From Planotetraspora kaengkrachanensis (GTDB lineage Bacteria; Actinomycetota; Actinomycetes; Streptosporangiales; Streptosporangiaceae), in contig NZ_BONV01000006.1 in the NCBI RefSeq assembly GCF_016862895.1, forward strand, positions 186,001 to 250,000: a stretch of DNA of 64,000 nucleotides, written 5' to 3'. A program made the translations under genes and the position numbers. Below are positions 20,747-36,588 of this stretch, piece after piece. The notes beneath the pieces were generated by a model. It was not told where the DNA came from and did not search any database. It worked only from the letters and a program-made list of their open reading frames with translations. How positions within the stretch are numbered: position 1 is the stretch's first letter; each line of letters begins with the position of its first letter.

Positions 20747-20807
20747 TTGACAGGCGAACGGATTCGTGGGATCACAAACGAAAGATCCGATCCGTGAGCG
20801 CTCACGG
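20747..20807 (+). promoter_or_regulatory. Promoter and LacI-type operator O1 of the secreted GH29-like gene
   Basis: TTGACA (20747-20752) serves as the -35 box. It is followed by TGGGATCACA (20767-20776) and AGATCC (20783-20788), a block repeated in front of the second secreted enzyme. CCGTGAGCGCTCACGG at 20792-20807 is a perfect 16-bp palindrome of the LacI/GalR type, 54 bp before the start codon and positioned to block elongation or initiation. Confidence 0.8.
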
Positions 20808-20860
20808 GAGCGCTACCGGATGAAGCCCACCGGATCCCACCCCCCAAGCAAGGAGCCCAG

Positions 20861-23029
20861 ATGGCCGGTACGACCACTCGGAGGAGGCGGTTCGCCGCCG
20901 CGTTCGTCGCGGTGATGTCCCTCCTCCTCGGCATGTCACTCGCGACCCCCGCGCGAGCCGATCTCCAGAACCCGCGTCAGGCGTTCCTGCGCTCGTCCGT
21001 GTCGGGGTTGTTTCTGCACTGGGGGCTGCGCACGTCGCCGCAGCACACCAACTGCGCCCAGTGGGAGGCGGACGTCACCAACGGCGGCTGGACCCCGGGC
21101 TACTGGGTCTCCGAGGCCCAGAAGCTGCACGCGCAGTACATCGTTCTCGCCGCCTTCCACAGCCGGCTCGGGTACGCCCGGCCGTGGCCGTCCTCGATAC
21201 CCGGAAGCTGTCGCACGTCCCGCGACTTCCTCGGTGAGCTGATCAGCGCCGCGAACGCGCAGGGCCTGAAGGTCATCCTCTACATGACCGACGACCCGCA
21301 GTGGCACAACGAGGGACTGAGCTCGGGTGACTGGCTCGACTCCGCGGCCTACTCCACGTACAAGGGCCACACCGTCGACCTGACCACCCGGGATGGCTTC
21401 GGCGAGTTCAGCTACGACAACATCCTTGAGGTCACGAACCGCTACCCGAACCTGTCCGGGTTCTGGATCGACAACGACAACGCGTACTGGGAGAGCCACG
21501 ACCTGTACGAGCAGATCTACCAGCTCCGCCCGAGCTACACGATCAGCAACAACAACGAGGACACGCCGATCATGGACATGATCAGCAACGAGCAGAAGAC
21601 CGGCATGTCCCCGAGCTACGACTACCCGCAGGCGGTCTACACGGCGGCGCCGCGGCTGATCGAGGCCGACTTCAAGCTCCCGTCGACCGGCGCGTGGTGG
21701 TACGACGGGTCCAATCCCTCGGTCGACCGCAAGCTCACCCTCGGCCGTCTGGTCACCAACGCCGGTTCCTCCATCAAGGCGCTCATGGCGGAGACCGCGC
21801 AGGTCAACGGCAAGTTCCCGTCGAATCAGGAGGCCTTCAACGACTTCGCCGACGACTACCTGGACCAGATCTGGCCGTCGCTGAACGGCACCGAGGGCGG
21901 CGGGTACATGTACGGCGGCCTCAAGCCCGGCTTCTGGAACAACGGAGCCCACGGCGTGACGACGATCAGCAAGACCAATCCGAACCTGCACTACATCCAC
22001 GTCGTAACCCCGCCGTCGGGGAGCACGCTGCAGGTGCGCGACAACGGGTACCGGATCACCGGCGTGACCAACCTGCGCACCGGCGCCGCGCTGAGCTTCA
22101 CCCAGGCCGACGGCACTCTGACGATCAGCGGCGTCTCCGGCTGGGATCCGTACGACACCGTCTTCAAGGTCACCTCCAGCGGCCGGGAGGGCGTCTACAC
22201 GGGTGTCACGGTCGGCGCCACCGCCTCGGCGAGCGGGCACGCCGCGTCGGCCGCGGGCGACGGGAACTACCTGACCTACTGGGACAGCAACAAGACCACC
22301 CCGGTTTCGCTCACCTATGACCTGGGCTCCGCAAAGGCGGTCCGCTACATCGGGATCAACCAGCGGGAGGACTCGGTGAGCTACGCCCGGTCGGACACCG
22401 AGCAGTCCGCCCGGATCCAGGACTATCGGGTGTACGTCTCAAGCAACGGCACGAGCTGGGGGAGTCCGATCAAGACGGGCACCCTGCTGAGCCAGCGCGG
22501 GGTGCAGTTCATCGATCTGCCCGCCACCACCACGCGGTACGTGCGGCTGGAGGTGGTCGACACCTACGCCGCCTCGACCGACACCACCCGCTACAAGCGG
22601 CTGCGCGTCGACGAGACCTGGATCGGCGGCTCCTACGCCGGGAGCGGCGCGGGCGGGGGGACCACCTCGATCGAGGCGGAGACCGGCACGCTGAACGGCT
22701 CCGCGGTGGCCGCCGCCTGCGCGACCTGCTCGGGCGGCGCGAAGGTGCGGTTCATCGGGAACAACTCGGCGAACCACGACACCCTGACGGTCAACGCCGC
22801 CACGGCGGGCACCAGGCAGCTCACCGTGTACGCCGAGGTCGATGGCACGCGGTCGTTCTTCGTCAGCGTCAACGGCGGCACGGGGGCCGAACTCCCGATG
22901 ACCGGTTCGAGCTGGTCGACTCCCACCACCGCGACCATGAACGTCAGCCTCAACGCGGGCGCCAACACTCTGCGGTTCTACAACAACGGAGCCAACGCGC
23001 CCGACCTCGACAAGATCACCATCAGCTGA
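20861..23029 (+). CDS. Secreted GH29-like glycoside hydrolase with F5/8C-type and CBM modules
   Basis: This 722-aa exported enzyme has a signal peptide with RRRRF (cleavage near ARA-DLQ, residue 33). A TIM-barrel domain related to alpha-L-fucosidase family GH29 follows: GLFLHWGLRTSPQ, AQYIVLAAFHSRLGY, LKVILYMTDDPQWH and GFWIDNDNAYW, where Asp204 sits at the nucleophile position. After residue 440 there is a galactose-binding-like F5/8 type C module (YWDSNKTTPVSLTYDLGSAK) and a final beta module (SIEAETGTLNGSA, VRFIGNNS). AAGGAG precedes the ATG. It is similar over its length to the gene at 30075. The fucosidase label is by fold; the true sugar is unknown. Confidence 0.8.
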   Translation: MAGTTTRRRRFAAAFVAVMSLLLGMSLATPARADLQNPRQAFLRSSVSGLFLHWGLRTSPQHTNCAQWEADVTNGGWTPGYWVSEAQKLHAQYIVLAAFHSRLGYARPWPSSIPGSCRTSRDFLGELISAANAQGLKVILYMTDDPQWHNEGLSSGDWLDSAAYSTYKGHTVDLTTRDGFGEFSYDNILEVTNRYPNLSGFWIDNDNAYWESHDLYEQIYQLRPSYTISNNNEDTPIMDMISNEQKTGMSPSYDYPQAVYTAAPRLIEADFKLPSTGAWWYDGSNPSVDRKLTLGRLVTNAGSSIKALMAETAQVNGKFPSNQEAFNDFADDYLDQIWPSLNGTEGGGYMYGGLKPGFWNNGAHGVTTISKTNPNLHYIHVVTPPSGSTLQVRDNGYRITGVTNLRTGAALSFTQADGTLTISGVSGWDPYDTVFKVTSSGREGVYTGVTVGATASASGHAASAAGDGNYLTYWDSNKTTPVSLTYDLGSAKAVRYIGINQREDSVSYARSDTEQSARIQDYRVYVSSNGTSWGSPIKTGTLLSQRGVQFIDLPATTTRYVRLEVVDTYAASTDTTRYKRLRVDETWIGGSYAGSGAGGGTTSIEAETGTLNGSAVAAACATCSGGAKVRFIGNNSANHDTLTVNAATAGTRQLTVYAEVDGTRSFFVSVNGGTGAELPMTGSSWSTPTTATMNVSLNAGANTLRFYNNGANAPDLDKITIS

Positions 23030-23039
23030 TCGTTTCAGT

Positions 23040-23067
23040 GGGCCCCCGGTGCCGCCCCCGGGGGCCC
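23040..23067. terminator. Terminator hairpin between convergent GH29-like and GH36 genes
   Basis: GGGCCCCCGG (23040-23049) pairs perfectly with CCGGGGGCCC (23058-23067) around an eight-base loop, 11 bp after the stop of the secreted enzyme and 80 bp from the end of the convergent GH36 gene. It can serve both strands. Confidence 0.75.
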
Positions 23068-23148
23068 GCTGGCGTCAGGGGTCTCGGGTCGTCGTGACGG
23101 CCAGGCCCCCGCACCGGCCGGGTCCCGTCACACGACCACGAGGGTCCC

Positions 23149-24474
23149 CTACGGTGTGAAAGGGGTCGCTGGAGGCACCGAGGACAACACGCGACGGGTG
23201 GTCTCGAGGCCCCAGTCGTCGAGGTCGGCGATCCTGTCGGAGGTCGCGCGGAGCCCGCCGAACCGCTCGACGGTCGCGGTCCACTCCTCCCGGCGCTGTA
23301 CGGCGGGGCGGACGATCAGGCAGTCCGGGTCGTTCACCCACAGGCGGCCGTGCTGCCAGGATCGGCCGGTCGTCGAGAGCACGGCGGCCTGTTGTGAAGG
23401 GTCGGACAGGTCACCCGTCCCCGCGTCGTAGGCCGCGGCGATGTCGGGGGAGACCCGCATGGCGTCGACGAGGCCGGCGCTCGGCAGGATGGGGGCGCCG
23501 CTGCCCAGCACGTACGATTCCGGTCCTGCCGCCTCGCGGACGAGCGCCAGCCCCTCCCGGTACGCGGCGATCGGCGAGGCCCCGGAACGCCGCGGCCCGG
23601 CCAGCGCGCCGGCGTACAGGAAGTCGAGCTTGAAGTAGTCGAACCCCCATCCGCGCAGAGTCTGGAAGACCTCACGGAGATAGGCGGCCGCGCCCGGGTG
23701 CGTGACGTCGAGACCGTACAGGTCCTGGTTCCAGTTGTGGCCGGCGTCGCCCACCAGCCACTCGGGATGCCGGCGGGCGAGTTCGCTGCGCGCCCCGACC
23801 AGGAACGGCGAGAGCCACAGCCCCGCGCGCCTGCCCTCGGCGTGGATCCGCGCGGCCGTCTCCGGGATCGAGGAGAAGCGACCCGACGGCGTCAGCCAGT
23901 CACCGATCTCGGCCTGCCAGCCGTCGTCGATCTGGACGACGTCGACAGGCAGGTCGTGTTCGCCCACCGCCCGGAGGTTCTCCAGGACGTCGTCCTCGGT
24001 GACGTCCTCGTAGTAGTGGTACCAGGAGCACCACACGGTGGGCGGTCTGCGCAGCGGGCCCGTGCCCGCCTCGGCGGCGAAGCCGTCGGCCCAGGCGCCG
24101 AGCGCGGCGTCGAGCGGGCCGGGGAAGGTCTTCTCGACGACCTCGTCCGGCCGGTCGGCCGTGATCACCATCTGGTCGTCCACCAGGCGGGCCCGGATCG
24201 AGGGGACCGTCGCAAGACCGTCCCTGGCGGCGAACAGCCGTACCGGGCCGTCCGGCTCGGGGGCCACCGCGAGCAGTCCCTCGCCCTGGAACCCGTCGGC
24301 GGGGGCGGGGAGCCCCGGCCGGTAGCGCATCGTCTGCATGACCTGCTGCACCGGCTGGAAGCCGCGGCCCCCGACGGGGAGCGCCGAGGTCGGCGTCCAG
24401 CTCTGCCAGCCGTGCGCGTGCACCAGCCCGCGTGCCGGATCGACCGGGATCTCGGCGATCGGATGAAAGATCAT
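23149..24474 (-). CDS. Glycoside hydrolase family 36 alpha-galactosidase, intracellular
   Basis: This 441-aa GH36/GH-D clan enzyme hydrolyses terminal alpha-galactosyl-type residues with retention. The barrel motifs are clear: PPTVWCSWYHYYEDV, VDVVQIDDGWQAEIGDW, GLWLSPFLV, FDYFKLDFLYAGAL (nucleophile Asp in KLD) and MRVSPDIAAAYD (acid/base Asp). There is no signal peptide, so it works on imported oligosaccharides. It is shorter than the classical 700-aa enzymes because the N-terminal beta domain is reduced. The start codon overlaps the stop of the permease gene (ATGA, 24471-24474), which makes it the last gene of the transport operon. Confidence 0.87.
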   Translation of the reverse strand: MIFHPIAEIPVDPARGLVHAHGWQSWTPTSALPVGGRGFQPVQQVMQTMRYRPGLPAPADGFQGEGLLAVAPEPDGPVRLFAARDGLATVPSIRARLVDDQMVITADRPDEVVEKTFPGPLDAALGAWADGFAAEAGTGPLRRPPTVWCSWYHYYEDVTEDDVLENLRAVGEHDLPVDVVQIDDGWQAEIGDWLTPSGRFSSIPETAARIHAEGRRAGLWLSPFLVGARSELARRHPEWLVGDAGHNWNQDLYGLDVTHPGAAAYLREVFQTLRGWGFDYFKLDFLYAGALAGPRRSGASPIAAYREGLALVREAAGPESYVLGSGAPILPSAGLVDAMRVSPDIAAAYDAGTGDLSDPSQQAAVLSTTGRSWQHGRLWVNDPDCLIVRPAVQRREEWTATVERFGGLRATSDRIADLDDWGLETTRRVLSSVPPATPFTP

Positions 24475-25301
24475 CCTTTGGTGGCTCCTCCCGTTAGGCC
24501 CTTGACGAAGTGCTTCTGCAAGAACAGGTAGAAGATCAGCACCGGCAGCGTGGCCAGGAACATCAGCGCGAAGACCGTGCCGAAGTCGGCCTGGTACTGG
24601 CCGATGGACCGGTAGATGCCGGTGGTGATCGTGGTCCCCTGGGACGGCCCGAGGATGACCAGCGGGTTGATGAAGTCGTTCCAGATCCACACGCCCAGGA
24701 AGATCAGGACGCTCGCGGTCGCCGGCCGCAGCAGCGGGAACACCACGCGCCAGAAGATGCGCGAACGGCTCGCGCCGTCGATGGCCGCGGCCTCCTCAAG
24801 CTCGATCGGGATGCCGCGGAGGAATCCGGTGAACACGAAGACGCCGAACGGGATGTAGTACCCGACGTTGAACAGGACGAGGCCCTGCAGCGTCGTCATC
24901 AGCCCGAGGGCCCGGAGCACCTGGGTGATCGGCATGAGGATCACCTGCGGCGGGATCATCAGGCCGGACAGCAGCAGGAGCATGGCCACCCGGGCCCACC
25001 GGCTGCGCGACCGGGCGAGGAAGTGCCCGAGCATCGCCGACAGGACCGTCAGCAGGATGATCGACAGCGTCGTCACCACGATGCTGTTGGTAAGGCTCGC
25101 CCAGAACAGGTTGTCCGTACGGCCGAGCAGCCCGGTGATGTTCTCCAGGGTGGGCGGGTCCGGCAGGGACGCCGGCGACTGGGTGATCTTCTCGCCCTGC
25201 TTGAACACGTTGACGAGGATCATGTAGAGCGGCACCAGGAAGAACGCGCTGATGACGAGCGCGACGACCGGCCGCAACCACGGCAGGCGGGAGTCCTTCA
25301 C
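24471..25301 (-). CDS. Carbohydrate ABC transporter permease (MalG/CUT1 type)
   Basis: This 276-aa inner-membrane permease has six predicted helices and the cytoplasmic EAA loop (PIELEEAAAIDGASRSRIFWRVVFPLL, key residues EAA and G-x9-LP-like) that contacts the ATPase. The GTG start at 25301 follows GGAGGTG and overlaps the stop of the partner permease (GTGA). With the partner at 25298-26242 and the binding protein at 26246 it forms a CUT1 sugar importer. No ATPase gene is present, as is usual in actinobacteria that share one MsiK-type ATPase. Confidence 0.9.
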   Translation of the reverse strand: MKDSRLPWLRPVVALVISAFFLVPLYMILVNVFKQGEKITQSPASLPDPPTLENITGLLGRTDNLFWASLTNSIVVTTLSIILLTVLSAMLGHFLARSRSRWARVAMLLLLSGLMIPPQVILMPITQVLRALGLMTTLQGLVLFNVGYYIPFGVFVFTGFLRGIPIELEEAAAIDGASRSRIFWRVVFPLLRPATASVLIFLGVWIWNDFINPLVILGPSQGTTITTGIYRSIGQYQADFGTVFALMFLATLPVLIFYLFLQKHFVKGLTGGATKG

Positions 25302-26242
25302 AGGTTCACCTCCCTGCGGTTGAGCACCTTGAGCGTGACCCCGGCGGCGGCCGCGATGATCACGAGCATCACGATGGCCATCGCGGACGCGTAGCCCTGC
25401 CGGTTGGCCACCAGTCCGGTCTGCAGGACGTCATAGGCGATGGTCGCGGTCGTCCCGGTGCCGGGACCGCCGTGCGTGATGACCTGGATGTGGTCGAAGA
25501 CCTTGAACGCGGTGATGAGCAGCACGACCGTGTTGATGGTCAGCGAGGGCGCGAGCAGCGGCCAGGTGATCGAGCGGAACCGCCGCACCGGGCCGGCGCC
25601 GTCGATGGACGCGGCCTCGGCCAGCTCGTTGGGCACGCCCTGGAGCCCGGCCAGGTACACCACGACGCAGAAGCCGAGCATCTGCCAGGACAGGATGATG
25701 GCGATCGAGTACAGCGCGAGCCGGGGATCGGACAGCCAGCCCGGCGGCTGTTCCACCCCGAGCGCCCGCAGCGTCTGGTTGACCAGGCCCTCGTCGTCCA
25801 GCATTCGCGTCCACACGACGCTCACGACCACCGAGCTGAGCACCATCGGGGTGAAGAACACCGTGCGCAGGGCGTTGTAGAGCCAGCCCTTGCGGTCGAG
25901 CAGGACGGCGATGCCGAGCCCGGCCACATTCGGCACGATCACCACGATGACCGTGAGAATCGTGGTGACCCGCAGCGAGGTGAGGAACTCGCTGTCGGTG
26001 AACAGCAGCCGGTAGTTGTCCAGCCCCACGAACCTGGTCGGGGGGTTGAACGGGTTGTGGTTGGTCAGGCTGTAGCCGAAACTGATCGCGATCGGCGCGA
26101 GTACGAAACAGGTGTAGACGAGCAGACCCGGCGCCCCGAACAACGCGAACGACCGCAGCCGTTCCGCCCGCGGCAGGCGGGGCCTCCGCGACCCGGGGGT
26201 CGCGGAGGCGGGGACGGGTGTCGTCCTTACGTCGACTGCCAT
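25298..26242 (-). CDS. Carbohydrate ABC transporter permease (MalF/UgpA type)
   Basis: This 314-aa permease has a Pro/Arg-rich cytoplasmic N-terminus, six predicted transmembrane helices starting with LFGAPGLLVYTCFVLAPIAISFGYS, and an EAA loop (VPNELAEAASIDGAGPVRRFRSITWPLL, abbreviated landmarks ELAEAASIDGAG and WPLLAPS). It starts three bases after the binding-protein stop and overlaps the second permease. It is the partner subunit of the sugar channel of this operon. Confidence 0.9.
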   Translation of the reverse strand: MAVDVRTTPVPASATPGSRRPRLPRAERLRSFALFGAPGLLVYTCFVLAPIAISFGYSLTNHNPFNPPTRFVGLDNYRLLFTDSEFLTSLRVTTILTVIVVIVPNVAGLGIAVLLDRKGWLYNALRTVFFTPMVLSSVVVSVVWTRMLDDEGLVNQTLRALGVEQPPGWLSDPRLALYSIAIILSWQMLGFCVVVYLAGLQGVPNELAEAASIDGAGPVRRFRSITWPLLAPSLTINTVVLLITAFKVFDHIQVITHGGPGTGTTATIAYDVLQTGLVANRQGYASAMAIVMLVIIAAAAGVTLKVLNRREVNL

Positions 26243-26245
26243 CGG

Positions 26246-27538
26246 TCAGGACGCCTTGGCCCACTCGTCGTCGAGGGACGCCAGCACCTGGTCGACGGTC
26301 TTGTTGCCGGTGATGAGGTCCTGGGCGCCTGCCCGCCACTTGTCGACCACGCCGGGCAGCATGCCGTCGTCACCGGCCTCCCAGCTGAACGCCTGGGTGA
26401 CGGTGTTGCTCTTCACGCCCTCCTGGTAGAGGTCGTAGCCGAGCTTGAAGACCGCGCCGGTGTCGGCCGGGGGCGTGTATCCCTTGATCGCGGGGTAGAG
26501 CCCGTCGTTGTGCACGGAGGCGTCCAGGTTGGTCTGGTCGAGCGTGTACGCCAGGGCGAACTCCTTGGCCTCGGGCAGGTTCTTGGCCGTGGCGCTCACC
26601 GACAGGCCGCCGCCGGTGAAGGCGGGCACGACCACGCTGCCGTCGTCGGTCGGCCAGTTGAACGCGCCGATCTCCCACGAGGGCTTGCGCTTGGGGTCGT
26701 CGCCCGCGGCGGCGAACCAGTTGCCCATCGGGTACATCGCGCCCTTGCCGTCGAGGAAGGCCTGCTCGGTCGCCGCGTAGTCGCGCGAGACGTCCTTCTT
26801 GTCGAGGTAGCCCTGCTTGGCGAGCTCGGCGAACTTCTCGGTGGCCTTCTTGAAGTCGGGGTCGGTGAACTTCACCGTCCCGGCCCGCCGCTTGGCCATC
26901 CAGTCGGGGGTCTTGGCGTACACGTCGGTGGCGATCGTGGCCGTCCAGGCGAGCGTGGAGGCGAAGGGGTCCTTGCCGCCGCCGATCACGAACGGCGTGA
27001 TGCCCTTCGCCTTGAGCTTGGCGGAGTCGTCGAGCAGCTCGGCGTACGTCTTGGGCGGAGCGGTGATCCCCGCCTTGGCGAACAGGTCCTTGTTGTAGTA
27101 CACGACCGGGATCGTCTGGGTGTTGGTGGGCAGCTGGTAGATCTTGCCCTGGACCGCGCCGTTGTTGGGGAAGTCGAAGTCCTTGAGCTCGTCGGGGGTG
27201 AAGGCGGCCATGGCGCCGCTCTCGGCGAACCCGGCGGGGGAGACCGCGATCATCACGTCGGGGAACTGGCCGGACGCCAGCAGCTGCTTGGCGTAGGAGA
27301 CGCGGTCCTCGGTCGGAGCGACCAGCTTCTTCACGGTGATGTCGGGGTACTTGTCGGTGACCCGCTTGATCGCCGTGTCCCACACCTGGGGAGTCATGTT
27401 GGGCGTCTCGAAGACCAGGAAGCTGATCTCCTTCTTGCCGGCGCCGCCGCTCGACTGCGCGGTCTGCTGGTCGCCGACGCTGCACGCGCCGGCGACCATG
27501 GTCGTGACGATAGCCGTCAGTAAAGCTTTGTGCTTCAT
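26246..27538 (-). CDS. Sugar ABC transporter solute-binding lipoprotein (SBP family 1)
   Basis: This 430-aa lipoprotein has a signal MKHKALLTAIVTTMVAGACS with the lipidated Cys at residue 19. The mature part follows the family 1 binding-protein plan: KEISFLVFETPN, KQLLASGQFPDVMIAVSP, QTIPVVYYNKDLFAKAGI and GAMYPMGNWFAA. It captures the oligosaccharide outside the cell for the two permeases. The ATG at 27538 overlaps the stop of the cytoplasmic GH29-like gene (ATGA), so enzyme and transporter are co-translated. The ligand is probably a fuco- or galacto-configured oligosaccharide, inferred from the neighbouring enzymes. Confidence 0.9.
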   Translation of the reverse strand: MKHKALLTAIVTTMVAGACSVGDQQTAQSSGGAGKKEISFLVFETPNMTPQVWDTAIKRVTDKYPDITVKKLVAPTEDRVSYAKQLLASGQFPDVMIAVSPAGFAESGAMAAFTPDELKDFDFPNNGAVQGKIYQLPTNTQTIPVVYYNKDLFAKAGITAPPKTYAELLDDSAKLKAKGITPFVIGGGKDPFASTLAWTATIATDVYAKTPDWMAKRRAGTVKFTDPDFKKATEKFAELAKQGYLDKKDVSRDYAATEQAFLDGKGAMYPMGNWFAAAGDDPKRKPSWEIGAFNWPTDDGSVVVPAFTGGGLSVSATAKNLPEAKEFALAYTLDQTNLDASVHNDGLYPAIKGYTPPADTGAVFKLGYDLYQEGVKSNTVTQAFSWEAGDDGMLPGVVDKWRAGAQDLITGNKTVDQVLASLDDEWAKAS

Positions 27539-28644
27539 GACGATGTGCCTTCCGATGAGTGATGAGGGGTGATTTCTGACGCCGCTGGACGCGGCGAGGC
27601 GGTCCCCGACGTTGCGCGGGCCGTCCTGCGGCGCACGGTGACGTCGGTGGAGAGCCCGGGCCGTTCTTCTGCGTGGGAGGGGAGGCGGACGCCTTCTGTT
27701 CCGCCGAGTGACTCCCAGATGCCGTCCAGGTAGGACTCCGCGAAGTCGCAGAACGCCTCCTGGCCGGGCGCGAACCTGCCGCCGTGCCGCGCCCCGAACC
27801 CGAGCAGCGACTTGGTGGAGGAACCGGCGTTGGCGACGATCCGCCCGACGACCTGCTCGTGGTCGACCTCGGGATCGGAGCCGTCGTACCACCACCCGCC
27901 GTCGGCGACGGTGAAGGCGGACTCGGCCACGCGCGGAAGCGGCCCGTACGCGGCGAGGGCCGGGACGACGACGTCCATGGCCGTGTCCCCGCGCGGGACG
28001 TCCGGATCGTTGCAGGCCAGGATCCAGTCGGGCCGTTCCGCCCGGATCCGGTCGTAGAGGCCGCTCCGCCTCCAGTAGGCGTTCTCCTTGTCGATCCAGA
28101 ATCCCGCCAGATCCGGATGACGCCGCATGACCTCGGCGAAGTTGTCGGCGGCGAACTCGCCGAATCCGTCGCGGGTGGTCAGGTCGACAGGTCGCCCCTT
28201 GTAGGCGGAGTAGGCCGTCGAGTCGAGGGACTCGAGGCCGTCCTCGTCGTGCCACTTGGGGTCGTCGGTCATGTAGAGCAGGACTCTAAGGCCCCGGGCT
28301 TCCGCGGCGGCGACCAGCTCCCCCAGGAAGTCCCGCCGGGTGGCGGGGCTGCCGGGGATCTCCGACGGCCAGGCGCGGACGTAGCCCAACCTGCTGTGGA
28401 ACGACGCGAGCACCATGTAGCCGGCGTGCAACTGGACGGCCCGGTCGAGCCAGTGGTCCGGAGTCCACCCGTCGGCCGTGACCCGGTCCTCCCAGGCCCG
28501 GACGTCCGTGTACGGAGGCGAGGTGCGCATGCCCCAGTGGAGGAGAAGGCCGAGCACGCCGTCCCTCAGCCACCTCTGACGGCCGAGGGCCAGAGCGGCG
28601 AGGTCGGCGCCGGAGGCCTGGACGAGTTCATTCCGCCGGATCAT
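27535..28644 (-). CDS. Cytoplasmic GH29-like glycoside hydrolase (catalytic domain only)
   Basis: This 369-aa protein is a paralogue of the two secreted enzymes but lacks both a signal peptide and the C-terminal binding modules. The barrel landmarks are the same: GLLLHWGMRTSPP, AGYMVLASFHSRLGYVRAWPS, LRVLLYMTDDPKWH, KGRPVDLTTRDGFGEF and GFWIDKENAYW (Asp185 at the nucleophile position). The last 45 residues are unlike the paralogues and low in complexity. GAGGAGG lies five bases before the ATG. It is the first gene of the transporter operon, 18 bp downstream of a LacI-type operator, and should trim imported oligosaccharides. Confidence 0.8.
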   Translation of the reverse strand: MIRRNELVQASGADLAALALGRQRWLRDGVLGLLLHWGMRTSPPYTDVRAWEDRVTADGWTPDHWLDRAVQLHAGYMVLASFHSRLGYVRAWPSEIPGSPATRRDFLGELVAAAEARGLRVLLYMTDDPKWHDEDGLESLDSTAYSAYKGRPVDLTTRDGFGEFAADNFAEVMRRHPDLAGFWIDKENAYWRRSGLYDRIRAERPDWILACNDPDVPRGDTAMDVVVPALAAYGPLPRVAESAFTVADGGWWYDGSDPEVDHEQVVGRIVANAGSSTKSLLGFGARHGGRFAPGQEAFCDFAESYLDGIWESLGGTEGVRLPSHAEERPGLSTDVTVRRRTARATSGTASPRPAASEITPHHSSEGTSS

Positions 28645-28665
28645 TGCACCTCCTCGTTACCGCTC

Positions 28666-28712
28666 ACGTGAGCGTTCACGGAGACATTCATGCAACAAGG
28701 CGCGAATGTCAA
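28666..28712 (-). promoter_or_regulatory. Promoter and LacI-type operator O2 of the transporter operon
   Basis: On the reverse strand, TTGACA (28712-28707) and GAATGT (28689-28684) are separated by 17 bases, a good sigma-70-type promoter. ACGTGAGCGTTCACGG (28666-28681), two bases off the CCGTGAGCGCTCACGG palindrome found elsewhere in the cluster, covers the expected transcription start. The lacI-type gene ends just upstream, at 28723. Confidence 0.8.
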
Positions 28713-28722
28713 GAGTGAGCGA

Positions 28723-29733
28723 TCAGGCAGAGGCCCGCACGACCAGTTGCGGTTCGATAACGGCCTCGGGGATCTCGTCCTCGCTCATGCCGCCGAGCAG
28801 CAGCGCCGCCTGCTCGACGGCGATCTCGCCCAGCCGGCGCTTGTCGATGTGGAGCGTGGTCAGCGGAGGTTCCACGAGTTCGCCGATGCTCAGTCCGTCG
28901 AAGCCGAGGAACGCGCAGTCCTCCGGCACGCGCAGGCCGAGGGCGCGGGCCCGGAGCTGGGCGCCGATGGCGATCAGGTCGTTGTAGGCGAACACCGCCG
29001 TGACGTCCCGGTGCGCCGACAGCAGCCGCTCCATCGCCACCGCGCCGCCGTCGATCGAGTTGTGGGCGGGCTGTATCCAGTCGATGTCGACCGGGATCCC
29101 GCGCTCGCCCATCACCTTGAGGTACAGCTCGCGCCGGGTGTTCGGCGCCTCGGCCGACAGGTACGCCTCGTCGTCCAGCATCGCGATCCGGCGGTGTCCC
29201 CGGTCGATCAGGTACTCCAGGCCCCGCCGTGCCCCGCCCTCGAAGTCGATCCGCACGCCGGGCACCGCAGGGGCTCTGCCGCCCTTGTCCAGCAGCACGA
29301 ACGGGAGGTTGCCCGCCGTCGCCTTGGCGATCGCCTCGTGATGGAGCAGGAAGGCCACGCCCGCGTCCACCTGGTCGAAGAGCATGTCGACGACTTCCAG
29401 TTCCTTGCGGCGCTCGGAGCCGGTGTTGTAGACGACGACCTGCCACCCGCGGCGTTCGGCGGCCTCCAGCACCCCCGCCGTCACCTCGGGGAAGAACGGG
29501 TTCAGCACGTCGGCGATGACCAGCCCGACGGTGATCAGATCCTGGCGGACCAGGCCCCGGGCGAACCGGCTCGGCCGGTATCCCATCGCCTGGGCCGCCT
29601 CGAGGACGCGCCGGCGGGTCTCGGGATCGATCTCGGACTTGTTGTTGATCGCCCGGGACACGGTCTGGCGGGAGACTCCGGTCGCCTGGGCCACTTGGTC
29701 GATGGTGACCCGAGGTTTTCTGTTGGTCGGCAC
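28723..29733 (-). CDS. LacI-family transcriptional repressor of the glycoside regulon
   Basis: This 336-aa LacI/GalR repressor has an N-terminal headpiece (VTIDQVAQATGVSRQTVSRAIN) with a hinge near GYRPSRFARGL and a sugar-binding core (about residues 60-330: ITVGLVIADVLNPFF, FVLLDKGG, DVTAVFAYNDLIAIGA, AFLGFDGLSIGELVEPPLTTLH). I take GTG at 29733, with GGGAGG 13 bases upstream, because LacI proteins usually begin there; ATG at 29784 (AGGAG nine bases before it) would add 17 residues. Four matching operators lie in front of the GH and transport genes around it. Release by an imported oligosaccharide is expected. Confidence 0.88.
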   Translation of the reverse strand: MPTNRKPRVTIDQVAQATGVSRQTVSRAINNKSEIDPETRRRVLEAAQAMGYRPSRFARGLVRQDLITVGLVIADVLNPFFPEVTAGVLEAAERRGWQVVVYNTGSERRKELEVVDMLFDQVDAGVAFLLHHEAIAKATAGNLPFVLLDKGGRAPAVPGVRIDFEGGARRGLEYLIDRGHRRIAMLDDEAYLSAEAPNTRRELYLKVMGERGIPVDIDWIQPAHNSIDGGAVAMERLLSAHRDVTAVFAYNDLIAIGAQLRARALGLRVPEDCAFLGFDGLSIGELVEPPLTTLHIDKRRLGEIAVEQAALLLGGMSEDEIPEAVIEPQLVVRASA

Positions 29734-29866
29734 GTTGGGACTGTAACCTCCCTGGACGCCTTCGGCGTATCGGGCGGCCCACATGGGTGGCATCTCCTGG
29801 CCCGCTGACCTCCACACATCCGATGTATCCGGGGTCGTCTGCCCGGGTTCTCGCCCGGACTGACCG

Positions 29867-29949
29867 TTGACAGCCACCTCGGTTGTATGGGATCACAGTC
29901 CACAGATCCAATCTTTGCGATCCGAAAAGCTGGCCGTGAGCGCTCACGG
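29867..29949 (+). promoter_or_regulatory. Promoter block and LacI-type operator O3 upstream of the second secreted GH29-like gene
   Basis: TTGACA (29867-29872), TGGGATCACA (29888-29897), AGATCC (29904-29909) and the perfect palindrome CCGTGAGCGCTCACGG (29934-29949) occur in the same order as at 20747-20807. The spacing is the same up to AGATCC apart from one extra base, and the operator is set 16 bases farther down. The site also lies upstream of the divergent repressor gene and could allow autoregulation. Confidence 0.8.
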
Positions 29950-30010
29950 CGGTCGGCCGGATCGCGCGCGGCGACGCGGATCCGAAGATGGTGAAGGTCG
30001 TCGGAAACGC

Positions 30011-30030
30011 CCCCGTGAGCGCTCACGGGG
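30011..30030 (+). promoter_or_regulatory. LacI-type operator O4, extended 20-bp palindrome
   Basis: CCCCGTGAGCGCTCACGGGG is a perfect 20-bp palindrome with the same core as the other sites. It lies 79 bp from O3 center to center (about 7.5 turns) and 44 bp before the start codon. Two sites in front of one gene suggest cooperative binding or looping. Confidence 0.82.
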
Positions 30031-30074
30031 GTGCCACAAGGACAGTCGAGATCGCAGGCTCGAAGGAGTTCCCC

Positions 30075-32318
30075 ATGGTCAACGCCTTATCCGGCGACGG
30101 CGATCAGGTGAGGAGGCGAAGGCGGCGTACGGTCGCGGCGGCGATCGCCGCGGTCCTCGCCCTCGCTCTGAACATGATCACTATCAGTCCCGCCCGTGCT
30201 GATCTGCAGAATCCGCGTCAGGACTTCCTCCGCGATTCGGTCGGAGGCCTGTTCCTGCACTGGGGCGAGCGCACCGCGCCGCAGCACACCGACTGCGCCC
30301 AGTGGGAGGCCGACGTCACCGACGGCGGCTGGACCCCCGACTACTGGCTGGACGAGGCGCAGAAGCTGCACACGCAGTACATCGTGCTCGCCACCTTCCA
30401 CAGCCGCCTCGGCTACGCCCGGCCGTGGCCGTCCGCCATCCCGGGCAGCTGCAGCACCAAGCGGGACTTCCTCGGCGAGCTGATCAACGCGGCCAAGCCG
30501 CGGAACATGAAGATCATTCTGTACATGACCGACGACCCGCAGTGGCACACGCAGGGCCTGACGACCGGCGACTGGCTCGACTCGGCCGCGTACTCCGCGT
30601 ACAAGGGCCATGACGTCGACATCACCACCCGCGACGGGTTCGGCGAGTTCAGCTACGACAACTTCTTCGAGGTCATGGAGCGCTACCCCGACCTCGGCGG
30701 GTTCTGGATCGACAACGACAACGCGTACTGGGAGCGCAACCACCTGTACGAGCAGATTCACCAGTTGCGGCCGAACTACACGCTCAGCAACAACAACGAA
30801 GACACGCCCGAGATGGACATGGTCAGCAACGAGCAGAAGACCGGCATGTCCCCGGCGTACGACTACCCCCAGGCGGTCTACACGTCGCAGCCGCGGCTCA
30901 CCGAGGCCGACTTCAAGCTCCCCACGACCGGCAACTGGTGGTACGACGGGGTCGACCCGGCCGTCGACTACCGGGTCTCGCTCGGCCGGCTGATCACCAA
31001 CGTCGGATCCTCCGTCAAGGTGCTCATGGACGAGCAGGCCATGGTCAACGGCCGCTTCCCGAGCAAGCAGGAGGCGTTCAACGACTTCGCCGACGACTAC
31101 CTCGACCAGATCTGGGAGTCGCTGAGCGGTGTCGAAGGCGGCGGCTACATGTACGGCGGCCTCGAGCCCGGCTTCTGGAACGACGGCGCGCACGGCGTCA
31201 CCACGATCAGCCGGACGGACCCGAACCTCCACTACGTCCACGTCGTGACCCCGCCGGCCGGCACCACCACGCTGAAGCTGGGCGACAACGGTTACAAGGT
31301 CAAGAGTGTGACCAACCTGCGCACCGGCGCCAAGCTGAAGTTCTCCCAGTCGGACGGCACCCTCGCCATCACCGGGATCTCCGAGTGGGATCAGTACGAC
31401 ACGGTCTTCAAGATCACGACGAAGGGCCGGGAGAAGACCCTCTCCGGGGTCACCGTCACCGCCACGGCGTCGGACGACGGCCACGACGCCGCCGCCGCGG
31501 CCGACGGCGACTATCTGACCTACTGGGACAACGACAAGACGTTGCCCGTGTCGCTCGACTTCGACCTCGGCAAGGCCAGGAAGGTCTCCTACATCGGGCT
31601 CAACCAGCGTGAGGACTCGGTGAGCTACGCGCGGTCGGCGACCGAGCAGTCGGCCCGCATCCGCGACTACCAGGTGTACGTGAGCAAGGACGGCGTCGAC
31701 TGGGGCACCCCGGTTCTGAGCGGCACCCTGCCCAGCGAGCGGGGCGTCGAGATCATCCGGCTGCCCGAGACCAAGGCGACCAAGAAGGCCGCCCACGTCC
31801 GGCTCGAGGTGCTCAGCACGTACGCCGCCGCGACCGACACCACCAGGTACAAGCGGCTGCGGATCGACGAGGCGTGGCTCGGCGACCGGTTCACCAGGCA
31901 CGGCAAGCCGATCAAGGATGAAGATGGTGACGGCGGAGGCGTCACCCTGCCGGTCTTGATCGAAGGAGAGAGCGGCGTGCTGAGCGGGTCGGCCAGAGCC
32001 GACACCTGCGCGGCCTGCTCGGGCGGCGCGAAGGTGCGCTTCATCGGCAACAACACGTCCAACTACGCGACGTACAACGTCAACATGCCGGCCGCGGGTG
32101 ACAGGCAGTTGACGATCGCCGGGACGGTGAGCGGCACCCGGTCGTTCTCCGTGAGCGTCAACGGCGGCCCGGCCGTGACGGCGACACTCACCGGCACGAC
32201 CTTCGACACTCCCATCACGACGACCGTCACGGTGCCGATGAACGCGGGATTCAACACCCTGAAGTTCTTCAACGACACCGCCAACGCCCCTGACCTGGAC
32301 AGCATCACCATCAGCTGA
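30075..32318 (+). CDS. Secreted GH29-like glycoside hydrolase with F5/8C-type and CBM modules (paralogue of 20861-23029)
   Basis: This 747-aa exported enzyme has an Arg-rich signal peptide ending ARA-DLQ near residue 42. The GH29-like barrel carries GLFLHWGERTAPQ, TQYIVLATFHSRLGY, MKIILYMTDDPQWH and GFWIDNDNAYW (Asp213). An F5/8C-like module (YWDNDKTLPVSLDFDLGKAR) and a C-terminal beta module (LIEGESGVLSGSA, VRFIGNNT) follow. AAGGAG precedes the ATG at 30075; the in-frame extension upstream crosses operator O4 and is rejected. It matches the enzyme at 20861 from end to end, so a duplication within one regulon is likely. The exact sugar specificity is not known. Confidence 0.8.
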   Translation: MVNALSGDGDQVRRRRRRTVAAAIAAVLALALNMITISPARADLQNPRQDFLRDSVGGLFLHWGERTAPQHTDCAQWEADVTDGGWTPDYWLDEAQKLHTQYIVLATFHSRLGYARPWPSAIPGSCSTKRDFLGELINAAKPRNMKIILYMTDDPQWHTQGLTTGDWLDSAAYSAYKGHDVDITTRDGFGEFSYDNFFEVMERYPDLGGFWIDNDNAYWERNHLYEQIHQLRPNYTLSNNNEDTPEMDMVSNEQKTGMSPAYDYPQAVYTSQPRLTEADFKLPTTGNWWYDGVDPAVDYRVSLGRLITNVGSSVKVLMDEQAMVNGRFPSKQEAFNDFADDYLDQIWESLSGVEGGGYMYGGLEPGFWNDGAHGVTTISRTDPNLHYVHVVTPPAGTTTLKLGDNGYKVKSVTNLRTGAKLKFSQSDGTLAITGISEWDQYDTVFKITTKGREKTLSGVTVTATASDDGHDAAAAADGDYLTYWDNDKTLPVSLDFDLGKARKVSYIGLNQREDSVSYARSATEQSARIRDYQVYVSKDGVDWGTPVLSGTLPSERGVEIIRLPETKATKKAAHVRLEVLSTYAAATDTTRYKRLRIDEAWLGDRFTRHGKPIKDEDGDGGGVTLPVLIEGESGVLSGSARADTCAACSGGAKVRFIGNNTSNYATYNVNMPAAGDRQLTIAGTVSGTRSFSVSVNGGPAVTATLTGTTFDTPITTTVTVPMNAGFNTLKFFNDTANAPDLDSITIS

Positions 32319-32361: not shown

Positions 32362-33261
32362 TCAGCCGGCGTCCTCGGTGAGCCGGCGCCACTCGGCGTT
32401 CGCCGCGGCGGTCCACCTGGCGTGCTGCCGCCGGAACAGGCTCGCGGCCCGGGCGCCGCTCCAGTGTGCGGGCAGCAGTTCACCGGGCAGTTCGGGATCG
32501 TCTGAAGGGAACCTGCGCCAGGAGTGCACCAGCTCGGCCACCCGCACCAGCGGATCGCGGGACGGCCGGCGCGCGAACTCGGCGAGGAACCGCTCGTAAC
32601 TTCTCTCGATGGCGTCGAGATCCCACGCCTGCCTGACCATCCCCGCCAGTTCTCCCGCCCGGTGCTCCGCGAGGAAGATCTGGGCCTCGTCGAGCACGCC
32701 CGCCTCATCGAGGACCCGTTCCGCCTCGGCCGCGCGGTCGCGATGGGTGCTGATCCACACGCCGGGAGCGGGGCTGCCGAAGCCGGCCCAGCCGAGACGG
32801 GTACGCAGCAGGTGCCGCGTCGGCCGGTCGCTCTCCGGCACCCGCGCAAGGACGAGCAGCCAGCCGCCGTCCCATTCGCGCTGCAGTCCCCGGAAGCCGT
32901 AGATGCGCTCGGCGCCATCGGTGAGCAGGCGTTCCGCGTCCGGGGTCAGGCTCCACAGCGTGCGCCGGCCCACCCGCTCCGAGGCGAGCCAGCCGTCGGC
33001 CGCGGTCCGCATCAGCGCCTGTCTGCTCGCCTTCTCCTCGACGCCCAGCCGGCCGAGCACGTCGATGAACGCCGACGTCCACGCCGATCCGCCCGAAGGC
33101 AGGACGAACTCGCCGAGCACGGTGAACAGCAGCCCCCGGGCGCTCTCCGCGCCGGCGGCGTGCCTGCGCGACACCGTGGGTGACGCGGCGGCCGTGGTTA
33201 CCGTGGTGCCCGCGCTTCCCGCGCCGGCGTCGGTCGTGGTCAGGGATGCCGGTGTCGACAC
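32362..33261 (-). CDS. PaaX-family transcriptional regulator
   Basis: This 299-aa protein has the PaaX plan: an N-terminal winged helix (LLFTVLGEFVLPSGGSAWTS, EEKASRQALMRTAADGWL, RRTLWSLTPDAERLL), then the C-terminal PaaX domain (EWDGGWLLVLARVPESDR, GFGSPAPGVWIS). PaaX proteins repress aromatic-acid catabolism and are released by an aryl-CoA. GTG at 33261 follows GAGAGG with suitable spacing; ATG at 33291 is an alternative. It is divergent from boxC, so benzoyl-CoA rather than phenylacetyl-CoA is the likely effector here. That is inferred from context. Confidence 0.85.
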   Translation of the reverse strand: MSTPASLTTTDAGAGSAGTTVTTAAASPTVSRRHAAGAESARGLLFTVLGEFVLPSGGSAWTSAFIDVLGRLGVEEKASRQALMRTAADGWLASERVGRRTLWSLTPDAERLLTDGAERIYGFRGLQREWDGGWLLVLARVPESDRPTRHLLRTRLGWAGFGSPAPGVWISTHRDRAAEAERVLDEAGVLDEAQIFLAEHRAGELAGMVRQAWDLDAIERSYERFLAEFARRPSRDPLVRVAELVHSWRRFPSDDPELPGELLPAHWSGARAASLFRRQHARWTAAANAEWRRLTEDAG

Positions 33262-33420
33262 TCGATCCTCTCCCGTCGTCCGACGCGACATTCTACGGGC
33301 GGCTGACAGCCTGTCGGAGATGTGTAGAAGTTCCCGTCAAAATGCTACAGGCGGTTGACGGATCACAAGATGAGTGTGGAGCATGAGCTGACGGTCGGCA
33401 TGGTGACGGGAGAAGGATCC

Positions 33421-35148
33421 ATGACCATCACGGCAGGGGCGTCCGGCGCGCCGGAAGACGTGCGGCCGCAGGAGGATCCCGGTCCGCGGTCGGCGGTCGG
33501 CTTCCAGACACACCCGTCGCGGTACCGCCACTGGCACCTGTCCGTCGAGGGACCGATCGCGACCCTCACCATGGACGTCGACGAGCAGGGCGGCCTCGTC
33601 CCCGGATACGAGCTGAAGCTGAACTCCTACGACCTGGGTGTGGACATCGAGCTGTACGACGCGGTGCAGCGGCTGCGGTTCGAGCACCCCGAGGTCCGCA
33701 CGGTCGTGGTGACGGGCGGCAAGGAGAAGGTCTTCTGCGCGGGCGCGAACATCCGCATGCTCGCCGCCTCGACGCACGCCTGGAAGGTGAACTTCTGCAA
33801 GTTCACCAACGAGACGCGCAACGCGATGGAGGACGCGAGCGCCCACTCGGGCCAGACCTACCTCGCCGCGCTGAACGGCACGGCGTCGGGCGGCGGCTAC
33901 GAGCTGGCCCTGGCGTGCGAGCACATCATGCTGGTCGACGACCGCTCGTCGGCGGTCTCCCTGCCGGAGTTGCCGCTGCTCGGCGTCCTCCCGGGAACCG
34001 GCGGCCTCACCCGGGTGGTCGACAAGCGCCACGTGCGGCGCGACCTCGCGGACTACTTCTCCACCAGGTCCGAGGGGGTCGGCGGCAGGAAGGCCGTGCA
34101 GTGGCGGCTCGTCGACGAGGTGGTGCCGCGCCCCAGATGGGAGGAGACGGTCGCGGAACGGGCGGCCGAGTTCGCGCGGACGTCGCCCCGCCCGCAGGAC
34201 GCGACGGGCGTCGCGCTCACCCCGCTGGACCGGACGCGGACCGCCGACCGTGTCTCCTATCGCCACGTGACCGCCGTCCTCGATCGGGACCGCGGCTGCG
34301 CGGAGATCACCGTGACCGGGCCGGACGCCGAACCGCCGCGGACCGTCGCCGGGGTACACGAGCAGGGCGCGCGATTCTGGACGCTCGCAGTCACGCGGGA
34401 GCTCGACGACCTCATCCTCGATCTGCGCACCAACGAGACCGAGCTCGGCACCTGGGTCCTGCGCACGAAGGGCGACCCGGCGCTGGTCCTCGCGTACGAC
34501 GCCCTGCTGCTCGACCACGCGGGCGACTGGCTGGTCAACGAGATCGTGCTGTACCTCAAGCGGACGCTCAAACGGCTGGACGTGACCAGCCGCAGCATCA
34601 TCGCGCTGATCGAGCCGGGCAGCTGCTTCGCCGGCTCGCTCCTGGAGCCCGCGCTGGCGGCTGACCGCTCCTATCAGCTGTCCGGTGTCTTCGAGGAGGG
34701 GGATCCCGCCGCCGAGCCGGCCACGGTCACCGTCGGGCCGATGAACCTGGGGCCGCTCCCCATGGGCAACGGCCTCACCCGCCTCGGCACGAGGTTCTGG
34801 GGCGACGCCGACGCGCTCGCCGCGGCCACGGCGAACGCGGGGGAGGCGCTGGAGGCCGAGGACGCCGAGCGGCTCGGGCTGGTCACGTTCGCCCCCGACG
34901 ACATCGACTGGGCGGACGAGGTGCGCATGGCCATCGAGGAACGGGCCAGCTTCAGCCCGGACGCGCTCACCGGCCTGGAGGCCAACTACCGCTTCGCCGG
35001 TCCGGAGACGGTCGAGACCAAGATCTTCGGTCGTCTCGCCGCGTGGCAGAACTGGATCTTCTACCGCCCCAACGCCTCCGGCCCCGACGGCGCGCTGCGC
35101 AAGTTCGGCACCGGACAGCGCGCCGACTTCGACAAGAAGCGAGTGTGA
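33421..35148 (+). CDS. boxC: Benzoyl-CoA-dihydrodiol lyase (2,3-epoxybenzoyl-CoA dihydrolase) BoxC
   Basis: This 575-aa crotonase-superfamily enzyme opens the 2,3-epoxybenzoyl-CoA ring with two waters to give 3,4-dehydroadipyl-CoA semialdehyde and formate. Landmarks are HPSRYRHWHLSVEGPIATL, PGYELKLNSYDLGVDIELYD, KVFCAGANIRMLA, NGTASGGGYELALACEH and EPGSCFAGSLLEPALAADR. Length matches known BoxC (about 555 aa). ATG at 33421 follows AAGGA; upstream in-frame starts exist but lack similarity. Its stop overlaps boxB, so lyase and epoxidase are co-translated. Confidence 0.94.
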   Translation: MTITAGASGAPEDVRPQEDPGPRSAVGFQTHPSRYRHWHLSVEGPIATLTMDVDEQGGLVPGYELKLNSYDLGVDIELYDAVQRLRFEHPEVRTVVVTGGKEKVFCAGANIRMLAASTHAWKVNFCKFTNETRNAMEDASAHSGQTYLAALNGTASGGGYELALACEHIMLVDDRSSAVSLPELPLLGVLPGTGGLTRVVDKRHVRRDLADYFSTRSEGVGGRKAVQWRLVDEVVPRPRWEETVAERAAEFARTSPRPQDATGVALTPLDRTRTADRVSYRHVTAVLDRDRGCAEITVTGPDAEPPRTVAGVHEQGARFWTLAVTRELDDLILDLRTNETELGTWVLRTKGDPALVLAYDALLLDHAGDWLVNEIVLYLKRTLKRLDVTSRSIIALIEPGSCFAGSLLEPALAADRSYQLSGVFEEGDPAAEPATVTVGPMNLGPLPMGNGLTRLGTRFWGDADALAAATANAGEALEAEDAERLGLVTFAPDDIDWADEVRMAIEERASFSPDALTGLEANYRFAGPETVETKIFGRLAAWQNWIFYRPNASGPDGALRKFGTGQRADFDKKRV

Positions 35149-36572: not shown

Positions 36573-36588
36573 AGCCGGACGGTGCGCA

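Follow-up and report, generated by a model that had tools for sequence, protein, structure and literature searches.

The window analyzed here, a stretch of 64,000 nucleotides from Planotetraspora kaengkrachanensis (contig NZ_BONV01000006.1, positions 186,001 to 250,000), carries between 20.8 and 32.3 kb a putative carbohydrate regulon in which three paralogues related to glycoside hydrolase (GH) family 29 are found together with a GH36 α-galactosidase-like protein, a CUT1 sugar importer, a LacI-family regulator, and four copies of one operator. Positions are window coordinates throughout. A regulator adjoining an importer and hydrolases is an ordinary layout in actinobacteria, and the locus is such a LacI/CUT1 design, built around a real and well conserved GH29 branch without assigned function; we know of no activity for any of its members.

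Organization of the Locus

A first-pass annotation, made from the letters of this DNA, had described the locus as a LacI regulon in which one catalytic fold occurs in secreted and cytoplasmic forms; its observation is confirmed and its interpretation supported by the present analysis. On the minus strand, an operon runs from 28644 down to 23149 in the order cytoplasmic GH29-like protein, binding protein, two permeases, and GH36 protein, and the LacI gene lies between this operon and secreted enzyme 2 (Table 1). Pfam assigns Alpha_L_fucos to all three GH29-like proteins (2.6e-10 to 6.5e-9) and F5/8C to both secreted enzymes, with CBM_35 just under its cut-off. It also recognizes SBP_bac_1, two BPD_transp_1 permeases, LacI, and Melibiase, bearing out the genes first proposed for the regulator, the GH36-type enzyme, the CUT1 binding protein, and the two permeases. 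An SBP_bac_1 protein with two BPD_transp_1 permeases is the composition of a CUT1 importer. The regulator combines a LacI-type helix-turn-helix domain (PF00356, 8e-15) with a periplasmic-binding-protein-like domain (PF13377, 1e-30) and is thus a member of the LacI/GalR family. In the GH36 protein, FKLDFLYAG and VDAMRVSPD align with FKIDFLFAG and VDGMRIGPD of GalA (1zy9; E 1e-66), and we take the aligned Asp pair to be the catalytic pair; the protein receives partial matches only in NCBIfam and Pfam, and NCBIfam gives no match for the GH29-like catalytic domains. Within the window's genome, P0003 matches nothing at E ≤ 10 but the three GH29-like proteins, paralogues as first described.

One boundary given earlier had to be moved. 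Secreted enzyme 2 starts at 30075 rather than 29988, at an ATG preceded by AAGGAG, so that the operator at 30013 lies upstream of the gene and not inside it. The LacI gene most likely starts at the GTG at 29733.

Table 1. Features of the putative regulon, in window coordinates
Feature	Position	Strand	Basis or remark
TTGACA hexamer, possible −35, 45 bp 5′ of operator 1	20747..20752	+	Exact hexamer
Operator 1, exact CCGTGAGCGCTCACGG, 5′ of secreted enzyme 1	20792..20807	.	Exact match
Degenerate tandem copy GGGAGCGCTACC, 3/12 changed, phase +12	20806..20817	.	Identical in L008
Secreted GH29-like enzyme 1	20861..23029	+	Signal peptide (by eye), GH29-like domain, F5/8C resembling carbohydrate-binding module (CBM) 32, C-terminal CBM35-like module (below Pfam cut-off)
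GH36 α-galactosidase-like protein	23149..24474	-	No signal peptide seen; alignment to T. maritima GalA
CUT1 permease 2	24471..25301	-	Pfam/NCBIfam
CUT1 permease 1	25298..26242	-	Pfam/NCBIfam
Carbohydrate-binding protein SBP_bac_1	26246..27538	-	Lipobox by eye
Cytoplasmic GH29-like paralogue, barrel only	27535..28644	-	Val replaces Glu at the predicted acid/base place, Asp adjoining
Degenerate tandem copy GTTACCGCTCAC, 2/12 changed, phase −12	28656..28667	.	Identical in L008 and L010
Operator 2, ACGTGAGCGTTCACGG, two changes, 5′ of transporter operon	28666..28681	.	Pattern match
TTGACA hexamer, possible −35 of transporter operon	28707..28712	-	Exact hexamer
LacI/GalR-family regulator	28723..29733	-	GTG start after GGGAGG
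TTGACA hexamer, possible −35 of secreted enzyme 2	29867..29872	+	Exact hexamer
Operator 3, exact, between LacI and secreted enzyme 2	29934..29949	.	Exact match
Operator 4, exact, 79 bp from operator 3	30013..30028	.	Exact match
Secreted GH29-like enzyme 2, domain order as in enzyme 1	30075..32318	+	Pfam, predicted structure

An Operator Confined to the Locus

All four operator sites first reported, exact at 20792, 29934, and 30013 and with two changes at 28666, were recovered by pattern matching, and they stand, as had been claimed, 5′ of both secreted enzymes and of the transporter operon, the site at 30013 included once the start of enzyme 2 is corrected. The exact operator occurs three times in the whole 8,766,364-base genome, each time at this locus; the genome-wide scan, set beforehand as a possible refutation, found no exact copy elsewhere. 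With up to two mismatches the pattern is found at 17 places, compared with 9 for a reversed-pattern control, so that in number the exact copies alone are exceptional, and frequency lends the 28666 site no significance. As the gap separating LacI from the operon offers ~62 start positions, the probability of such a site arising there by chance is ~1e-4.

Across 297 genomes of the family, the exact operator is present in 10 and the reversed-pattern control in none, which, together with its uniqueness within the genome, rules out a chance pattern. Half of these 10 genomes belong to the genus Planotetraspora. The other five contain six exact sites: two, both in Microbispora corallina, lie 5′ of a permease gene and of a GH29-like gene, one falls within a predicted gene similar to CBM35 and GSDH, and three are in unrelated places. 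A one-mismatch site, C2:339332, lies inside a predicted coding region (discoidin-like by eye) and for that reason was not counted as a member of the regulon.

At several promoters the operator is accompanied by a second, degenerate palindrome in phase with it at a distance of 12 bp. In the window this is the case at the promoters of enzyme 1 (three changes) and of the operon (two changes); tandem copies are also found at both Actinacidiphila cocklensis promoters and the Nonomuraea basaltis importer (two changes each) and at four Streptomyces loci with a sister LacI (one to three changes). The pairs consist of head-to-tail 12-bp palindromes, one good and one degenerate (window 20794–20817 and 28656–28679; L060 5244–5267; L153 2475–2498; L137–L140 near 1501). 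No tandem copy is present at the two sites 5′ of enzyme 2, at both M. corallina sites, or at the N. basaltis β-helix site. The frequency of such 12-mers in the window is 0.0007 for up to three changes and 0.00014 for up to two; with four flanking positions per site, the chance of a tandem copy is ~0.003 and ~0.0006, respectively. An exact TTGACA stands 31–67 bp 5′ of an operator at each of the three promoters.

Conservation of the Operator with Its Regulator

The two sites 5′ of enzyme 2 are kept in all three Planotetraspora relatives compared, P. mira (L008), P. thailandica (L009), and P. silvatica (L010). The site 5′ of the operon is retained letter for letter in P. mira and P. silvatica, the P. 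thailandica stretch ending short of this place. The site 5′ of enzyme 1 is exact in P. mira, is represented by two one-change sites in P. thailandica, and is missing in P. silvatica, where enzyme 1 is split over two frames (L010 1303–2032) and the operator-bearing upstream region is lost or different. A fifth genome of the genus, G588, has two sites 5′ of enzyme 2 and a one-change site 5′ of the operon. (Over the compared stretches, G608 is the same genome as L008, G563 as L009, G512 as L010, and G703 as L056; each was counted once.)

Outside the genus, the operator is associated with the same kinds of genes. In M. corallina, one exact site is 5′ of a GH29-like gene and another lies between a binding protein and permeases that are followed by a GH36 gene (63%); a third place, with one change (L154), has no cluster gene alongside. 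In A. cocklensis, the exact site precedes GH105, the first gene of a GH105-lyase-GH28-GH29-GH27-GH18-GSDH run, a two-change copy lies between LacI (58%) and the importer operon, and a long GH36 gene is directly 3′ of the permeases. N. basaltis has LacI (79%), a one-change site, a binding protein (83%), and permeases, with a second one-change site 5′ of a β-helix gene on another contig.

The association of regulator and operator was counted for 49 of the 78 related loci described below by searching the genomes they belong to, 23 of them Streptomyces, with at most 44 candidates scored per genome. All 49 have the enzyme; 8 match MCGTGAGCGYTCACGK, and the reversed control is found in 2, at one place each. 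The three genomes with a LacI match of at least 59% are exactly those with at least two MCGTGAGCGYTCACGK places, two of these three having been found before the count was made. None of the other 46 genomes has two or more places and five have a single one, which in one of them lies in an unrelated gene. The LacI-operator pair is an old, inherited unit: next to genes of similar kinds, regulator and operator occur together in Planotetraspora, Microbispora, Actinacidiphila, and Nonomuraea. This co-occurrence across genomes is the basis for proposing that the regulator binds the operator.

A Divergent Branch of GH29

An AlphaFold model of the enzyme 2 catalytic domain (27-row alignment, pLDDT 80.9) has the (β/α)8 barrel and C-terminal β-sandwich of GH29, and the top 50 PDB matches returned by Foldseek are all GH29 proteins, at 15–20% identity. 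HWG, the FWID Asp, and the SNEQ Glu fall on GH29 motifs in profile searches against PDB sequences and against canonical actinobacterial GH29, the latter with a probability of 99.3. In GH29, the nucleophile is an Asp after strand 4 and the acid/base a Glu after strand 6 (PMC10154630). The predicted nucleophile of the branch, D172 in alignment A3, directly follows strand 168–171 (strand 4), is invariant in 27 of 27 rows, and is aligned to the GH29 Asp. In the secreted enzymes, E212 after strand 208–211 (strand 6) occupies the predicted acid/base place, next to a region, 213–231, where pLDDT is <50.

The branch forms a single clade (100/100) whose stem, 3.12 changes per column long, sets it apart from 26 canonical actinobacterial GH29 sequences. 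This separation, together with the low identity to the 50 best solved GH29 proteins, upholds the strong divergence from classical fucosidases that had been proposed. The His-His of the HH[DE]G motif has a role in fucose binding at the −1 subsite. This motif is found in 26 of 28 canonical open reading frames (ORFs), whereas FHS[RK]L takes its place in all 27 branch members. The tree was built with the 26 canonical rows carrying HH[DE]G, and the profile comparison used 25 of the 28 ORFs; as HH[DE]G served as an anchor in the tree alignment, motif and tree are not independent, and a long-branch warning applies among the canonical rows. Placement inside a characterized GH29 subfamily, the other possible refutation named beforehand, was not seen among the 50 best-matching solved structures, and a new substrate for the branch is possible. 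Membership in GH151, also considered, found no support, as the Pfam sugar-hydrolase matches are Alpha_L_fucos and a weak GHL6 and no GH151-named entry occurs among the PDB profile matches. These results argue for a GH29 fold with a predicted catalytic Asp in a separate clade with a changed active-site motif. Conservation within the branch is 69–93% identity among the 78 loci kept. In a phylum-wide search with A1, the window's genome alone of 396 gave a match, but as at most two candidates were scored in each genome listed, this result is uninformative.

The cytoplasmic copy is stripped, as first described, of signal peptide (by eye), β-sandwich sequence, and binding modules, and it also lacks the Glu at the predicted acid/base place: in the three cytoplasmic rows Val stands where E212 would be, with an Asp adjoining, and E236 is the remaining invariant Glu. 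Such copies occur in the window, L008, and L010, with a partial match of 86% in G588 (L121/L127), and form their own clade (100/97). The possibility of a frameshifted full-length gene was rejected, as no β-sandwich homology was seen by eye in three frames at the 3′ end and the L010 copy ends alike; judged from sequence, the gene is taken as a genuine short form.

A conservative explanation would be that these are ordinary exo-α-L-fucosidases with drifted motifs, the importer taking up free α-galactosides and the cytoplasmic copy being a decaying duplicate. The GH29 fold and nucleophile fit such enzymes, as do the lost Glu of the cytoplasmic copy and the broken enzyme 1 of P. silvatica. However, FHS[RK]LGY is present in 27 of 27 aligned members, so that the motif change is not random drift, the cytoplasmic copy has been kept without stop codons in both L008 and L010, and L-fucose isomerase has no match in the window's genome. 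We consider this explanation unlikely.

Neighbors and Fusion Partners in Relatives

The surroundings of the enzyme were compared at 78 loci, obtained by keeping the best 80 of 235 related stretches in a contig scan; neighbor counts are lower bounds, covering at most 10 kb on each side (tblastn, E 1e-20, 120 bits, 35% identity). Most frequent are GH105 (60 loci), a lyase-like protein (53), GSDH (53), GH27 (49), and a BT4146-like GH28 (49), followed by GH18 (31), GH8 (11), a BT4155-like GH28 (9), and GH95 (7). At least one of GH105, the lyase-like protein, and GH28 occurs at 70 of the 78 loci, GH27 or GH36 at 52, and GH18 or GH8 at 34. A gene finder gave 82 GH29-like ORFs, the window's two included, 54 of which have the GH29-like domain as the sole catalytic domain among those looked for; the fusions are GH28-GH29 (19), GH28-GH29-GH27 (4), GH28-GH29-GH27-GH18 (4), and GH29-GH27 (1), GH27 thus being fused to the GH29-like domain in 9 of the 82. 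The four-domain forms are Streptomyces ORFs of ~1800 residues (L013 8483–13858, L016 8459–13852, L018 8366–13861, and L030 3471–9014), and the last also has F5/8C by Pfam.

The polymer that these enzymes attack would, on one reading, be the acidic heteropolysaccharide of zygomycetes (Mucoromycota), a polyuronide with glucuronic acid, fucose, and galactose that occurs beside chitin and chitosan. The full clusters would then act on chitin or chitosan (GH18, GH8), on glucuronan (lyase and GH105), and on side chains (GH29-like, GH27, GH95), with the window's organism restricted to the side chain. Several neighbors are consistent with such a target. The GH8 protein matches 5xd0 (named Glucanase) best, then the chitosanases 7cju and 1v5c at ~1e-72, far above the cellulase 1cem (5e-29); the GH18 domain is closest to an exochitinase. 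The lyase-like protein has a CBM35 most similar to the one in the exo-chitosanase CsxA, whose structure was solved with glucuronic acid (2vzr). For the catalytic half of this protein, structural matches other than CBM35-bearing proteins begin with the Trichoderma reesei endo-β-1,4-glucuronan lyase 2zzj (rank 37, E 2.2e-7), with alginate lyases of polysaccharide lyase (PL) family 7 lower. Mucoromycota walls and exopolysaccharides are reported to contain glucuronic acid, fucose, mannose, and galactose (PMC10481521, PMC11437000). However, the 2zzj match is a weak fold match at 13% identity, ranked behind CBM matches, with no meaningful PDB sequence match and PF14099 below cut-off; enzymes of the pectin type are present as well, namely GH28 (49 of the 78 loci) and a YteR-like GH105; and the authors of PMC11437000 report that glucuronic acid signals could not be identified in their own samples. 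A zygomycete polymer is a tentative proposal, short of even odds.

Other neighbors would be accounted for by a pectic polymer of plants, either rhamnogalacturonan I or a mucilage, whose side chains carry fucosyl or L-galactosyl and α-galactosyl residues. Without reaching the NCBIfam cut-offs, the GH28 domains resemble the rhamnogalacturonidase BT4146 (319 bits; 302 in the fusion) and the galacturonidase BT4155 (320 bits), the GH105 neighbor is closest to YteR, GH95 occurs at 7 of the 78 loci, and a β-helix gene lies behind the operator in N. basaltis. This origin is likewise short of even odds, and other observations speak against it: ten neighbor proteins, one per family, were scanned, with rarer neighbors outside the scan, and no PL4, PL9, or PL11 lyase was found among them; the sole lyase-like neighbor resembles β-uronan lyases in fold; and a chitinase is part of the same polypeptide. 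Because pectic (GH28, GH105) and fungal-wall (GH18, chitosanase-like GH8, glucuronan-lyase-like) enzymes occur in the same clusters, with GH28 and GH18 even in one polypeptide, no safe choice between the two polymers can be made. Glomalose (PMC12329162) was also considered as a substrate and dropped, as its polysaccharide is not identified.

The lyase-like gene, for example L053 8745–9911 with similar genes at 53 of the 78 loci, encodes a catalytic half that matches no PDB sequence and, in complete copies, a CBM35 of the CsxA type; this conserved protein possibly represents a new lyase family.

A Model for the Regulon

Compared with these clusters, the window's genome has a reduced gene set. 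No GH88/105 and no GH28 were found in it, the lyase-like protein gives matches only in the CBM35 region and none to the catalytic half, and there is no canonical GH29 at 1e-20 (PF01120 yields four candidates, none at this threshold, which the GH29-like genes themselves would miss). The description of the regulon as self-contained thus holds for the window's genome at the thresholds used; it does not hold for the wider system, as the same LacI type and operator also precede a GH105-led cluster and a β-helix gene. By its gene content the window's organism would be a reduced version, a stripped side-chain scavenger: only the three GH29-like forms, GH36, and the importer remain, so that the side chain would be its food, and as GH36 is found here in place of the GH27 of other loci, the partner sugar would be α-D-galactose.

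We favor, with a probability of about two in three, a LacI-repressed catabolic regulon for a side chain that contains α-D-galactose and a sugar recognized by the divergent GH29 branch. When no inducer is present, LacI would occupy the operators 3′ of the TTGACA hexamers and block both secreted enzymes and the importer operon. In the presence of the glycan, an oligosaccharide derived from it would enter the cell and release LacI. The secreted GH29-like enzymes, held to the polymer by their CBM32-like and CBM35-like modules, would cut extracellularly, the CUT1 importer would take up the freed oligosaccharide, and the cytoplasmic GH29-like enzyme and GH36 would split it to monosaccharides. The regulon model is well supported by the genomic evidence, and the locus is best read as an inducible uptake regulon for an α-galactosyl, GH29-sensitive oligosaccharide.

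Several observations weigh against this model. Two-change sites, among them the one at 28666, occur at background frequency across the genome, exact operators stand in unrelated places in three family genomes, and an automatic promoter scan recognized no complete sigma-70 promoter. The transporter operon has no ATPase gene; in CUT1 importers the ATPase is encoded elsewhere, and a shared MsiK-type ATPase is assumed. The missing Glu at the predicted acid/base place makes the activity of the cytoplasmic paralogue doubtful, and as enzyme 1 is broken and without its site in P. silvatica, it is dispensable there. The lack of an L-fucose isomerase match is mild evidence against L-fucose as the product. 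Of the 49 genomes with the enzyme, 46 have no LacI of at least 59% (one has a LacI of 51% and no site), so that most relatives regulate the enzyme otherwise. Finally, four of the five genomes with a single MCGTGAGCGYTCACGK place are Streptomyces, where a LacI of 47–49% and another binding protein flank the site, which is exact in one of the four and differs at one or two letters in the rest; the operator type is thus shared with a sister LacI rather than private to the window's. The sister LacI and binding protein are located at L137–L140, in Streptomyces that also carry the GH29-like enzyme, and may be the counterpart importer of these organisms.

A more far-reaching proposal, improbable as a whole, is that the branch is a new GH29 subfamily whose secreted members release an α-galactosyl oligosaccharide, not a monosaccharide, from a glucuronic-acid-rich, fucosylated zygomycete polymer. 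CUT1 would import this product, GH36 and the cytoplasmic paralogue would split it, Streptomyces would pack the same chemistry into the GH28-GH29-GH27-GH18 protein, and LacI would read the tandem head-to-tail operators.

A conserved branch with a changed active-site motif, linked to a defined set of partners through operator, operon, and gene fusion, offers a substrate that is directly testable. The system may also point to a bacterial route for the breakdown of zygomycete wall polyuronide; among the open-licence papers listed, judged by titles and the beginnings of abstracts, no bacterial pathway for this polymer is apparent, and no title there concerns this system or disaccharide-releasing relatives.

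Other Features of the Window

ARAGORN calls a tRNA-Arg(ccg) within a permease gene (26120–26203, minus strand). The call is also made in L008 and L010, is absent in L153, L155, and L060, and is probably a chance fold of coding sequence. Benzoate degradation by the epoxybenzoyl-CoA route is represented next to the regulon, at 32362–38169, by boxC, boxB, a benzoate-CoA ligase, and a PaaX-like regulator that scores below cut-off. At 46677–48644 is an EF-G-like GTPase of the ribosomal-protection type, nearest to Otr(A) and below the model cut-off.

Comparison with Known Systems

The core of the symmetric lac operator lacOsym, AATTGTGAGCGCTCACAATT, is the same as the core of the operator described here, GTGAGCGCTCAC (PMC3922697); the present operators differ from it in their GC flanks (CC..GG). 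Compared with LacI/GalR regulons, the locus is distinguished by head-to-tail tandem 12-mers at several promoters and by regulated enzymes that belong to a GH29 branch without assigned function. Among the neighboring proteins of relatives, the catalytic half of the lyase-like protein is nearest in fold to the PL20 glucuronan lyase 2zzj, but at 13% identity.

With the GH29-A fucosidases (9eu1–9eu4, AlfB 9hyx, and BT2970 2wvs), the branch shares the predicted barrel and β-sandwich, HWG, the position of the Asp nucleophile, and a Glu at the position of the DFTTPE Glu. It differs from GH29 fucosidases in the EW loop, which is a gap in the alignment, and in the replacement of HH[DE]G by FHS[RK]L. 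In a sequence network of GH29, edges are drawn at 40% identity (PMC11189522); the branch is at most 20% identical to the listed solved GH29 members, a comparison that covers enzymes with structures. The exo-α-L-galactosidase BpGH29 and the α-glucosidases ClAgl29A and ClAgl29B illustrate that branches of GH29 can change the sugar accommodated at the −1 subsite (PMC11189522, PMC10154630).

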